5,132 nt of DNA, from NCBI GenBank assembly GCA_024278345.1, contig JAJRTK010000446.1, positions 1-5,132 on the forward strand, written 5' to 3'. The DNA is from a bacterium. GTDB lineage: Bacteria > CSSED10-310 > JAJRTK01. This document shows, one piece after another, positions 319 to 4,360 of this stretch (positions within the stretch are counted from its first letter, which is position 1; each line of letters opens with the position of its first letter). The position numbers were made by a program, and so were the translations under genes. The notes under the pieces are model-generated. The model was not told the origin of the DNA. It saw only the letters and a list, made by a program, of their open reading frames with translations, and searched no databases.

Positions 319-326
319 CCAATCCC
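319..326. repeat. Left target-site duplication of the 327-527 element
   Basis: CCAATCCC directly abuts the left terminal inverted repeat. CCAATCCT (528-535) abuts the right one, so seven of eight bases match. The match is direct and not inverted, as expected for a target-site duplication. The other copy of the element also has an 8-bp duplication. Confidence 0.65.
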
Positions 327-527
327 GGCCTCGTCCATCGTTTCGCCCACCTCGTAAAATCCGGGCGCTACCCCAGGGCCTCCGGCCCTGGAATCCGGCG
401 GCGGCTCTGCCCCCAAACCTCCGCTGGGAGCGCTGCTCCCGGACCCACGCCAGAGAGCACGCTCCCTGGCCCCACGTTTATGTACGACGCTCTGCGTCGT
501 AGGGTGGCCGGAATGATGGACGAGGCC
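327..527 (-). mobile_element. MITE-like non-autonomous element, copy 1 (201 bp)
   Basis: The ends form an imperfect 25-bp terminal inverted repeat (327-351 against 503-527, about 22 of 25 matching, core GGCCTCGTCCATC), bounded by an 8-bp direct repeat. The interior is a chain of short hairpins: CCAGGGCC-tcc-GGCCCTGG (373-391), an arm at 450-469, GGGAGCGCTGCTCCC (426-440) and TACGACGC-tct-GCGTCGTA (483-501). Its reverse complement aligns along its length with 3572-3806; 417-433 is identical to the complement of 3700-3716, and 443-453 to that of 3680-3690. It encodes no transposase, so it would have to be moved in trans. It lies about 250 bp upstream of rtcB. The orientation is set relative to the other copy, which I call +. 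An alternative is a structured intergenic repeat spread by another mechanism, but the paired ends and flanking duplication favour transposition. Confidence 0.75.
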
Positions 528-535
528 CCAATCCT
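528..535. repeat. Right target-site duplication of the 327-527 element
   Basis: CCAATCCT follows the right terminal repeat and matches 319-326 in its first seven bases. The single difference at the eighth base fits drift after insertion or a 7-bp duplication. Confidence 0.6.
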
Positions 536-779: not shown

Positions 780-2054
780 ATGAACGTGCAGTTTGAACGG
801 ATTGACGATTACCGCTGGCGAATTCCGCGGACGGGGAAAATGCGAGTGCCGGGGCTGGTCTTTGCGTCAGAAAAAATGCTCAAGAATATCCAGCGGGACA
901 AGAGCCCGGAACAGGTGGCGAATGTTGCGCACCTTCCGGGGATTGTGGGGCATTCCATCGCCATGCCCGACATGCACTGGGGATACGGTTTTCCCATCGG
1001 CGGCGTGGCTGCGTTTGATGAGCGAGAGGGCGTCATTTCACCAGGGGGCGTGGGGTATGACATTAACTGCGGCGTTCGGCTGCTCACCACCGATCTCAGC
1101 AGGGGCGAGATCAAGCGGGACCTGGAGGAACTTTCCCTGGCGCTCCACAAGGCGATTCCGTCGGGTGTGGGGTCTCGGAGTCACCGGAAGCTCTCGGAAC
1201 GGGAGCTGGAGGAAGTTTTGGTTCGCGGTGCGGAGTGGGCTGTGACTGCCGGCTATGGCCAGTCCCGGGATTTGCGGGTCATCGAGGAAGGTGGCCGCCT
1301 CGCTGGCGCCGACCCTGAAAAGGTATCGCCTAGTGCCAAGACTCGCGGGAGGCCGCAGCTTGGGTCCCTGGGTTCGGGCAACCACTTTTGCGAGGTAGGC
1401 TGGGTATCAGAGGTGTACAACGCCCGGGCTGCCGAGGCTTTCGGGCTTCGGCAAGGGGGCGTGACGGTGATGATCCACTCCGGCAGTCGGGGACTGGGCT
1501 ACCAGGTCTGCGCCGACTCGCTTCGCAAGATGATCCAGGCGTCGGAGAAATACGGGATCCATTTGCCGGATCGCCAGTTGTGCGCCGCTCCGCTGGGGAG
1601 TGACGAAGCGGCCGACTATTGGGGAGCCATGGCTTGTGCCGTCAACTACGCCTTTGCCAATCGACAAATGCTGACCCATTTCGTTCGAAAAGCTTTTTCG
1701 GAGTTTTTTGACGTCGATGGGCTCGGGATGGATCTGGTCTATGATGTCTGCCACAACATCGCGAAGTGGGAGCATCACGTCGTCGATGGCCGCAAAAGGC
1801 GGCTCTGCGTGCATCGCAAGGGTGCGACCCGGGCTTTTGGACCCGGCCATGAGTCGGTGCCGGATCTTTACCGCGAAGTCGGCCAGCCAGTGCTCATCCC
1901 GGGGGACATGGGGCGATATAGCTTCGTGTTGGCGGGAACCACGGGAGCCATGGAGGAGACCTTCGGGTCCTGTTGTCATGGCGCTGGCCGTCTCATGTCC
2001 CGGACCAAGGCGAAAAAACTGGCCAGGGGCCGTTCCATCTTCAAGGAGCTCTAG
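780..2054 (+). CDS. rtcB: RtcB RNA-splicing ligase, ended early by an in-frame TAG
   Basis: RtcB joins RNA 2',3'-cyclic phosphate or 3'-phosphate ends to 5'-OH ends, using GTP and Mn2+ through a guanylyl-histidine intermediate, in RNA repair or tRNA splicing in the cytoplasm. Family motifs are all present: MPDMHWGYGFPIGG (62-75), D94 and C97 in GVGYDINCGVR, GSLGSGNHFCEV with N201 and H202, IHSGSRG with H233, CHNIAKWEHH with H325, VHRKGATRAFGPGH (344-357), and CCHGAGRLMSR with the predicted nucleophile H400. Numbering is offset by about four from my recollection of Pyrococcus RtcB (H404). The start at ATG 780 has AAAGGGGA nine bases upstream and gives the usual N-terminus. The frame stops after 424 residues at TAG 2052-2054 (KEL-stop), where the family normally continues with about 50 more residues. 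Those residues follow in the same frame. The family call is certain; whether this copy makes active enzyme is not. Confidence 0.95.
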   Translation: MNVQFERIDDYRWRIPRTGKMRVPGLVFASEKMLKNIQRDKSPEQVANVAHLPGIVGHSIAMPDMHWGYGFPIGGVAAFDEREGVISPGGVGYDINCGVRLLTTDLSRGEIKRDLEELSLALHKAIPSGVGSRSHRKLSERELEEVLVRGAEWAVTAGYGQSRDLRVIEEGGRLAGADPEKVSPSAKTRGRPQLGSLGSGNHFCEVGWVSEVYNARAAEAFGLRQGGVTVMIHSGSRGLGYQVCADSLRKMIQASEKYGIHLPDRQLCAAPLGSDEAADYWGAMACAVNYAFANRQMLTHFVRKAFSEFFDVDGLGMDLVYDVCHNIAKWEHHVVDGRKRRLCVHRKGATRAFGPGHESVPDLYREVGQPVLIPGDMGRYSFVLAGTTGAMEETFGSCCHGAGRLMSRTKAKKLARGRSIFKEL

Positions 2055-2213
2055 GACCGAGGGATTTGGGTGAGGAGTGACAGCAAGCGAACCGTTGCGG
2101 AGGAGATCTCTGAAGCGTACAAAGATGTGGCCGAGGTTATCGAGGTCGTGCATGGAGCCGGGATCGCCAGGAAGGTGGCCAAGATCGTACCGCTTGTGGT
2201 GGTGAAGGGGTGA
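2055..2213 (+). pseudogene. rtcB: Severed C-terminal segment of RtcB, in frame after the TAG
   Basis: Reading on in the same frame after the TAG gives 52 codons to TGA 2211-2213, beginning [19 protein letters not shown] and ending VVVKG. This is the canonical RtcB C-terminus (family pattern KELEERGI...[27 protein letters not shown]...RPLGVVKG). With the TAG counted as one codon the protein would be 477 residues, close to the 481 I recall for Pyrococcus RtcB. The segment contains Y447 and K476, which by position match Tyr451 and Lys480, recalled as guanine-pocket residues. No frameshift or other damage is visible, so the lesion is a single codon. Possibilities are a recent nonsense mutation, readthrough or suppression, separate translation from GTG 2070, or a base-call error (GAG or CAG to TAG). 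I label it pseudogene for lack of a better type; it may be functional. Confidence 0.85.
2059..2064 (+). promoter_or_regulatory. Possible ribosome binding site for restart at GTG 2070
   Basis: GAGGGA lies five bases before an in-frame GTG (2070-2072) and five bases after the TAG of rtcB. This spacing would allow termination-coupled restart, giving a 48-codon C-terminal RtcB peptide. It could equally be ordinary coding sequence (D-R-G-I). Confidence 0.25.
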
Positions 2214-2454: not shown

Positions 2455-3564
2455 ATGCAAAGCGGGAGCAAAAGGATTGCGGGAAAGATGATGCAAGGAG
2501 TCCGGGAGGATTCGCCGGAGAACCATGGCAAGCCGGGGGCGCCCACGGCGGCGCGGAAGAACTCTCACGTGGAGGTCTGCGCCACCGGGAAAGTGGGCTC
2601 GGATCGCTTGACCACGGGCTTGGAACGGTGGAGGTTGGAGCACGCTGGTTTGCCGGAGCTCGAGTTCAACAAGGTCGAGACCGGTTGCGAGGTTTTCGGG
2701 AAGCGGATCGCGGGGCCTCTTTTCGTGGCGCCCATGACCGGGGGAACTCCGGAAACAGCCGGGATCGTGAGAAACCTGGCCCTGGCGGCGGAGGAGATGA
2801 AATTGCCGATCTCCGTGGGATCCCAGCGAGCAGCCATCGAGGATCCCGACCGAAAGAAATTCTTCGAGGTCCGGCGCTACGCGCCGACCGTTCCCGTCTT
2901 CGGAAACCTGGGGGCCGTGCAGCTCAATTATGGTTACGGCGTCCATGAATACCGTGCCGCCGTGGAAATGATCGAGGCCGACGCACTCTTTCTCCATGTC
3001 AATACCCTGCAAGAGTGCATCCAGGAAGGGGGAGACACTGATTTCAGAGGGCTTTTGAACAAGCTGGAGGAATTGGTCGTGAAGTTACCGGTTCCCGTGG
3101 TTGTTTCCGAGGTGGGTTGCGGTTTTAGTGAAACAACCTTGAAGCGGCTCAGGGATGTTGGAGTTCGGGCGGTCTGTCCCAGCGGAGGCGGCGGGACTTC
3201 GTGGGCTCTGGTGGAGGCGCTCAGGGCAAGATCGCCATCCCGGGCCAGGTCGGGCCGCCTTTTTCGCGATTGGGGCATTCCGTTGGCCGAGGCCGTGCAA
3301 TTGGCCAGGCGCCAGGACGAAGACTGGACCGTCATGGCCGTGGGCGGAGTCAAGGATGGCCTCGCGATGGCCAAGTTGGTGGCGTTGGGCGCCGATCTGT
3401 GCGGGATGGCGCGAGCCCTCTTGCCCGCGGCGATGGAGTCTGCCGATGCCGTTTTGGCGGAGATGCGGCAGCATCTGATCGACCTTCGGATCGCCATGTT
3501 CTGTGCCGGGGCCGGGAGCGTGGAGGAGCTTCGGATGGGAAACTTTCTTCGGCCAGTGGAATAG
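2455..3564 (+). CDS. fni: Type 2 isopentenyl-diphosphate delta-isomerase (FMN-dependent)
   Basis: This enzyme interconverts IPP and DMAPP, the two C5 isoprenoid precursors, using reduced FMN and Mg2+ in the cytoplasm. The 369 residues cover the whole TIM-barrel family: RKNSH (34-38), TTGLERWRLEHAGLPELEF (53-71), APMTGG (92-97), SVGSQRAA (120-127), FGNLGA (149-154), H181 and N183, LQE with predicted catalytic Q186 and Mg-ligand E187, GGDTDF (192-197), GGGTSWA (245-251), VGGVKDG and GADLCGMA near the end. The N-terminus is about 30 residues longer than usual before the RK..H motif. Two conserved places differ: the usual VKEVG reads VSEVG (S218 in place of Lys), and the usual DVxGxGGTSW reads CPSGGGGTSW (C241). 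From memory the Lys contacts FMN, so activity may be altered. The gene ends at TAG 3562-3564, where a mobile element is inserted. The family call is firm; unchanged catalysis is inferred. Confidence 0.92.
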   Translation: MQSGSKRIAGKMMQGVREDSPENHGKPGAPTAARKNSHVEVCATGKVGSDRLTTGLERWRLEHAGLPELEFNKVETGCEVFGKRIAGPLFVAPMTGGTPETAGIVRNLALAAEEMKLPISVGSQRAAIEDPDRKKFFEVRRYAPTVPVFGNLGAVQLNYGYGVHEYRAAVEMIEADALFLHVNTLQECIQEGGDTDFRGLLNKLEELVVKLPVPVVVSEVGCGFSETTLKRLRDVGVRAVCPSGGGGTSWALVEALRARSPSRARSGRLFRDWGIPLAEAVQLARRQDEDWTVMAVGGVKDGLAMAKLVALGADLCGMARALLPAAMESADAVLAEMRQHLIDLRIAMFCAGAGSVEELRMGNFLRPVE

Positions 3565-3571
3565 AATCCTG
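3564..3571. repeat. Left target-site duplication of the 3572-3806 element
   Basis: GAATCCTG starts at the last base of the isomerase stop codon and is repeated exactly at 3807-3814, directly outside the other end of the element. Confidence 0.75.
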
Positions 3572-3806
3572 GGAGGTGGTCATCGGTGGTGCCTCCGGCA
3601 GCTCTCGCTGTCGCTCGGACCCGGCCACCCCCAAAAAAGCGCGCGGCGCACAAAAATGTGGGTCCAGGGAGTGCGCCCCCTGGCGTGGGTCTGGGAGCGG
3701 CGCTCCCAGCGGAGGTCCGGAGGCGGAGCCTCCGCCGGGTTCCAGGGCTGGAAGCCCCGGGGCTGGACCCGAAGTTCACTGGGTGGCCGGAACGATGACC
3801 AAGGCC
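3572..3806 (+). mobile_element. MITE-like non-autonomous element, copy 2 (235 bp)
   Basis: An exact 8-bp direct repeat flanks this block. Its ends match as inverted repeats over the outer 14 bases (11 of 14), including GGTCATCG (3578-3585) against CGATGACC (3793-3800). The right end (3782-3806) matches the right terminal repeat of copy 1 at 21 of 25 bases. Interior hairpins are GCGC-gcg-GCGC (3639-3649), CCAGGG/CCCTGG (3664-3683), CTGGGAGC-ggc-GCTCCCAG (3691-3709), CGGAGGC-gga-GCCTCCG (3718-3734) and CCAGGGCT-gga-AGCCCCGG (3742-3760, one mismatch). It is about 35 bp longer than copy 1 because of extra sequence just inside the left end (about 3586-3620). Open frames through it are by-products of the repeat. 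Its hairpins lie directly after the isomerase stop and could end or attenuate transcription, but there is no T-tract. Confidence 0.75.
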
Positions 3807-3814
3807 GAATCCTG
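3807..3814. repeat. Right target-site duplication of the 3572-3806 element
   Basis: GAATCCTG is identical to 3564-3571. Removing the element and one copy restores a continuous sequence running from the isomerase stop codon into the downstream spacer. Confidence 0.75.
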
Positions 3815-4000
3815 CTTTGGGTGCGGACCCACGGGAGGTCTTGGCTTGGCGGGGGAGGAGCCGTGGCCGGGGGCAAACAGGCGCGAGTGGCGACGGACGG
3901 ATTGCCGGCGCCGGGAGCGGAACGCAACCCGAAGAAAGATGAGCAACTCTGCCTTTTTCCCGGTAACGATTTGAAACTACACTTTTTTTAGATGTTCTAG
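3815..4000 (+). other. Spacer upstream of the small membrane protein gene
   Basis: I see no supported gene here. An 11-codon ORF (ATG 3939) is too short to judge. The AT-rich run at 3967-3993, against a GC-rich background, is the likeliest promoter region for the downstream gene. It has a TTGAAA (3971-3976) but no clear -10 box at a suitable distance. Confidence 0.3.
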
Positions 4001-4012: not shown

Positions 4013-4360
4013 ATGGAAGAGCTGGTCTTTCAGCGGGTGCTCTTGAAGATGCTTCCGCAGCTTCTGACGATGTCGGGAATGTTCCTGATGGCCAAGTTCC
4101 TTTTTCTTCACGTAACGATGGGCATGGTCGTTTACCGAAACGCCAGCCAGATGGAGCGTTGTGCCTTGGAGATCCCTCCCGTGATTTGGGGTTTCATGGT
4201 GCTGGTCAGCCCGATTTTTGGACTTCTGGTTTTCTGGCTGATGCACCATTCGGTTTTGGTGCGGGAGCGGAAAGTGGCCAGCACGGAGCTCAACGGTGCA
4301 ACCGGCCTGGTGAGTGGGCAGTCGATTTTTGGGCCGCGGAAGGAGCCACCTGGAGCCTAG
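4013..4360 (+). CDS. Small two-helix membrane protein of unknown function
   Basis: I do not recognise the family. The 115-residue product has two hydrophobic segments: about residues 17-41 (LLTMSGMFLMAKFLFLHVTM and on) and about 53-75 (IPPVIWGFMVLVSPIFGLLV and on). They are joined by a short polar loop, YRNASQMERCALE, and followed by HH and a basic stretch, RERK. The tail of about 35 residues is polar. By the positive-inside rule both the loop and the tail carry charge, so topology is not settled. The layout (helix, VYR..., IPPxIW, helix with a conserved-looking Pro) resembles many small inner-membrane proteins without a known role. AAGGAG six bases before the ATG and the coherent membrane pattern argue that it is real. 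It lies 105 bp upstream of etfB on the same strand, so a link to electron transfer is possible but is only inferred from position. Confidence 0.75.
   Translation: MEELVFQRVLLKMLPQLLTMSGMFLMAKFLFLHVTMGMVVYRNASQMERCALEIPPVIWGFMVLVSPIFGLLVFWLMHHSVLVRERKVASTELNGATGLVSGQSIFGPRKEPPGA

Follow-up and report, generated by a model that had tools for sequence, protein, structure and literature searches.

Are the two short blocks with inverted ends in this stretch of DNA mobile elements and, if so, which enzyme moves them? The window analysed here, 5132 b long, is the entire contig C385; the genome measures 6.06 Mb in 550 contigs and is 88% complete. It is very probable, in our view, that both blocks are MITEs served by a trans-acting transposase, most likely the DUF6399 protein of a 1.8–1.9-kb insertion sequence. 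The features of the window are collected in Table 1.

Table 1. Features of the 5132-b window; positions are counted from its first base.
Feature	Position	Strand	Remarks
5' target-site duplication, copy 1	319-326	.	CCAATCCC; 7/8 identical to 528-535
MITE copy 1	327-527	+	201 bp, the commonest length of both-ended copies
Left terminal inverted repeat, copy 1	327-351	+	GGCCTCGTCCATCGTTTCGCCCACC
Interior of copy 1, G+C-rich palindromes	372-473	+	CCAGGGCC..GGCCCTGG, CTGGGAGC..GCTCCCGG, CCAGAGAGC..GCTCCCTGG
Right terminal inverted repeat, copy 1	503-527	-	
3' target-site duplication, copy 1	528-535	.	CCAATCCT
rtcB	780-2213		Split by TAG
Type 2 isopentenyl-diphosphate isomerase-like FMN protein	2455-3564		Pfam FMN_dh; the isomerase name is our reading
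5' target-site duplication, copy 2	3564-3571	.	GAATCCTG
MITE copy 2	3572-3806	-	235 bp
Possible intrinsic terminator in copy 2	3639-3651	-	GTGCGCCGCGCGC then TTTTTT; consensus match only
Terminal inverted repeat, copy 2 (element 5' end on - strand)	3782-3806	-	GGCCTTGGTCATCGTTCCGGCCACC
3' target-site duplication, copy 2	3807-3814	.	GAATCCTG, exact repeat of 3564-3571
Small protein	4013-4360		
ETF beta-like protein	from 4463 on		Pfam ETF; the ETF-beta name is our reading

The block coordinates, inverted ends and flanking 8-bp target duplications, as claimed in an earlier note on this DNA, could be read directly from the sequence. The two 25-bp ends of copy 1 are 88% complementary, and the reverse complement of the block at 3572–3806 aligns with copy 1 at 79% over 165 nt. 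Copy 2 represents a subtype with a variant distal end that has diverged to 75% complementarity; this distal part is present too in C202, C348, C373, C474 and C500. Copy 1 lies upstream of rtcB and copy 2 immediately 3' of the FMN protein gene, the first base of its 5' duplication being the last base of the stop codon. No plausible transposase gene was found inside the 201- and 235-bp elements. Being short, gene-less and of high copy number, with shared inverted ends and flanking duplications, the blocks are indeed MITE-like and non-autonomous, as the note had proposed. Bacterial MITEs in general, among them MITEAba12 (PMC6382973) and those of Coxiella (PMC5896051), are likewise short, gene-less and multicopy, with inverted ends and a target duplication.

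Two other observations concern the surroundings of the copies. Inside rtcB, an in-frame TAG at 2052–2054 has Pfam RtcB matches on both sides and may reflect a pseudogene, readthrough or a sequencing error. A dispersed, multicopy repeat of roughly 55–60 bp occupies 3883–3943, and a query covering it (3815–3965) gave 49 BLAST matches in a 1.05-Mb sample of the genome.

How widespread are such elements? The 24-nt end consensus of the family to which both blocks belong, here called family A (GGCCTYGGTCATSGTWYCGGCCAC; up to 3 mismatches allowed), occurs at 157 + 152 = 309 sites in the genome, compared with 0 + 1 sites for the reversed control, and searches with either copy 1 or copy 2 returned at least 40 matches each. 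Family A is thus present in well over 100 copies, an unusual abundance. The "two-copy family" of the earlier note is therefore real as a family, common ends and duplications recurring genome-wide, but its copy number was far too low because the window is small. Both-ended copies are mostly 201–204 bp long, and 18 of 30 non-redundant ones are flanked by a duplication of 8 bp (at least 7/8 identity) or 9 bp (at least 8/9), 16 of them exactly, whereas 5000 flank shuffles yielded none. This count used a strict end pattern; a lax pattern with 887 candidates was discarded. The AATCC shared by the two target sites of the window is no rule of the family, the ten exact 8-bp duplications showing only a weak symmetric tendency, with G/C at positions 1 and 8 and A/T at positions 2 and 7. 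In the remaining 12 both-ended copies (40%), the duplication is missing; recombination between copies could account for this, as could misassembly. Many family-A ends, among those listed and in the sampled contigs, lie ~100–150 b from a contig edge, and many contig breaks in the sampled contigs fall within a family-A element, so that family A is one reason why the assembly is broken.

Could the blocks instead be cis-acting regulatory or structural repeats, such as terminators or REP-like palindromes, whose spread is due to recombination and not to transposition? Their palindromes are strong (fold z-scores of −7.9, for the whole copy 1 element, and −4.6), and copy 2 holds a hairpin followed by a T-run, in a window with 9 terminator consensus sites against 6.1 ± 2.8 expected. 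On the other hand, an Rfam search of the window matched no RNA family, and fixed ends with 8/9-bp duplications above chance argue for transposition, as does an empty site that could be reconstructed in a coding gene. Since no syntenic match to the window was found among the closest genomes compared, which share only the phylum, this site was sought within the same genome. The family-A copy at C5:335-535 lies within an ISL3 transposase gene, bordered on either side by the 9-bp GTTCAAGCG; excising the copy together with one 9-bp repeat in silico restores a continuous ISL3 C-terminal frame. This case is direct evidence of insertion, with the empty site internal to the same genome; in other cases, a frame without stops across an empty site carries no information, given the G+C content. 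A cis-acting origin is accordingly very hard to credit, and we conjecture that the hairpin-rich interior of the MITEs plays at most a side role, for example, in stopping transcription.

Which transposase, then, could act on these ends? The ISL3 and IS1595 families make 8-bp duplications and have ends starting with GG, for which the earlier note had named them as possible trans-acting sources; genes of both are present in the genome. We compared IS256, IS1595 and ISL3. The IS1595 remnants share with the window elements a GG-starting end and the same genome, but their end sequence is unrelated: the two resident copies cease to resemble each other at GGCTCTATATGCGATCC, with which the remnants begin and which is not the family-A end. 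The resident ISL3 gene, itself cut off by a contig end, is a victim of family-A insertion. IS256 (PF00872) had no match in the assembly, while control genomes were positive. In addition, a search of 100 sampled contigs (1.05 Mb) revealed no transposase gene flanked by a pair of family-A ends. A known 8-bp-duplicating resident family, whether one of these three or another, is therefore an improbable mover of the MITEs. The shortest of the sampled contigs measured 2506 b; short contigs are absent from the MAG, and any insertion sequence that collapsed during assembly would be missing as well. The enzyme was for this reason sought in other genomes.

There, the matching ends belong to elements with a DUF6399 gene. 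Plasmid pTs417 of 'Candidatus Thiodictyon syntrophicum' carries a 1916-bp element with a single gene, annotated only as DUF6399; its ends, GGCCTTGATCATAAATCCGGCCA/GGCCTTGATCATCGTTCCGGCCA, match family A, and it is flanked by an exact 8-bp duplication, GTCCAACC. Further DUF6399 elements have perfect 8-bp duplications (GCGCATTG and GGAATTGC, 8/8), and another has a 9-bp duplication read from its flanks (AGCCGGTTG, 9/9), which gives three exact 8-bp and one 9-bp duplication among both-ended elements; several intact elements are without one. Discrete DUF6399 elements were found in Thiodictyon, Lamprocystis and other Chromatiaceae, and one in a Desulfobacteraceae MAG. At unrelated Chromatiaceae loci, they align end to end, the alignment ending at the inverted repeats or only a few bases away. 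The outer GGCCTTGATCAT is fixed across the elements while the rest drops to 65–72% identity, which ties the ends to the DUF6399 gene. Like the window MITEs, the elements of pTs417 and Lamprocystis purpurea have the outer end GGCCTTGRTCATCGTTYCGGCC, GG...CC termini and a target duplication of 8–9 bp; DUF6399 elements measure 1.8–1.9 kb and contain one gene, whereas the window elements contain none.

Is DUF6399 plausibly part of a transposase? The family (Pfam PF19936) is filed as of 'unknown function', and we found no mention of it in the PMC papers searched. In the pTs417 protein, Pfam recognises DUF6399 at residues 400–546 and, scoring slightly under the cut-off, a helix-turn-helix in the N-terminal region; no NCBIfam family scored above its cut-off. 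Homologues of ~550–590 aa share invariant D147, D201, D221 (D[LV]FH) and E474 (VEGRNG), numbered as in the Thiodictyon copy, acidic residues that we read as probably a DDE-like layout. Profile comparison of DUF6399 with solved structures gave no significant match, and the integrase core matched one DUF6399 member only, weakly. ISL3 relatives for a further profile comparison were collected from plasmids with the rejoined ISL3 protein as the query, and hhalign, with shallow alignments of 5 sequences each, joined the two families over 25 helix-turn-helix columns only (probability 0.5%). The D-x-FH and 'EG.N' motifs of ISL3 and DUF6399 are alike by eye, but there is no profile homology beyond the helix-turn-helix; as the comparison is not significant, we do not file DUF6399 under ISL3. 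Searches of viral contigs found no DUF6399 relatives, and distant relatives on Crinalium and Methylomonas plasmids have no recognisable ends.

The genome of the window itself retains traces of such an element. It contains four DUF6399 fragments. An intact gene was not found in this MAG, the contigs seen being 2.5 kb or longer. At C80:2671-2790, a decayed DUF6399 C-terminal tail is followed by an inward-facing end, GGCCTTGGTCATAGTACCGACCAC, as in an intact element, and the end variant of this remnant, TCATAGTACCG, also terminates MITEs in C5 and C32. The match between the MITEs and an autonomous element is hence made with DUF6399 elements elsewhere and, in the window's genome, with a right-end remnant only.

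The ends reach well beyond these organisms. Among the matches listed, the exact end pattern occurs in Thiodictyon, Lamprocystis, other Chromatiaceae, Litorilinea, Desulfobacteraceae and others; end counts in four other genomes were 131, 39, 465 and 63, with reversed controls of 0. In Lamprocystis and Desulfoluna, the surroundings of ends were inspected in 20 stretches, which proved to be MITEs, or lone ends beside ordinary genes. Could several transposase lineages use the same motif, with DUF6399 acting in Chromatiaceae and in this organism and an unrelated enzyme in Chloroflexota, Yes70-08 and Desulfoluna? Ends are plentiful in Litorilinea, Yes70-08 and Desulfoluna, and a DUF6399 search of these end-rich drafts gave no match (bacterium Yes70-08, G043, has 465 ends in 4.3 Mb). 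Yet the genomes without a match are drafts, with many ends at contig breaks, and in the AUK157 MAG a truncated DUF6399-like gene that the Pfam model missed adjoins the end motif. We consider a plurality of lineages rather unlikely, though less so than a resident source of a known family.

We thus favour a DUF6399 enzyme, for which the following course of events can be proposed. The MITEs would be ~200-bp non-autonomous DNA transposons with ~24-bp inverted ends and no gene. A transposase supplied in trans, in which a helix-turn-helix at the N terminus would precede the DDE-like arrangement, would bind the ends and excise or copy the element, which would then be joined to a target whose strands had been cut with a stagger of 8 bp (sometimes 9). 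Repair would leave the 8/9-bp duplication. To judge from its conserved residues, DUF6399 would catalyse the movement by DDE chemistry, and we infer that it moved the two copies in the window. More broadly, it is likely that DUF6399 forms the C-terminal portion of a hitherto unrecognised DDE transposase and that this enzyme defines a new insertion sequence family. Its ends would have been copied into MITE swarms, from tens to hundreds of copies strong, in genomes of at least three phyla; in this MAG, the swarm would be one among several MITE families that show 8-bp duplications. The MITEs are ordinary in kind; the insertion sequence family behind family A is probably unrecognised, although ISfinder may already name it.

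These findings give a Pfam family of 'unknown function' a testable function, that of a transposase, and make DUF6399 the likely driving force behind a swarm of repeats that breaks up genome assemblies across phyla. Furthermore, the end sequences, the length of the target duplication and the candidate catalytic residues suffice to design a direct transposition test.

Several variants of family A were also seen. The copies in L012 and L039 carry an extra nested insert, the palindromic repeat TTCCCGTTGCAAC...GGGATC. Elements of ~130 bp with family-A-like ends and another interior lie at L127 5170-5299, L174 10391-10519 and L034 208-339; several MITE subfamilies rely on these same ends. Within family-A copies at L120 57-135 and L144 19-97, the ends of group II introns were recognised (RF00029, 58 bits against a cut-off of 40); they adjoin the family-A hairpins, which may serve as intron targets.

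Two additional MITE families occur in the genome. Positions 1–122 of the window form most of a family B element (ends GGGACCTATCA..., 154 bp, with 8-bp duplications elsewhere), and a partial match to the other end of this family lies at ~595–628. Family C (169–355 bp; L117, L138, L155, L189 and L199), which begins with GGGTATCCACGCAAGGCGGG or GGCCATCCACG..., likewise has GG...CC ends and 8-bp duplications, with 65 end matches in the 1.05-Mb sample compared with 0 for the controls.
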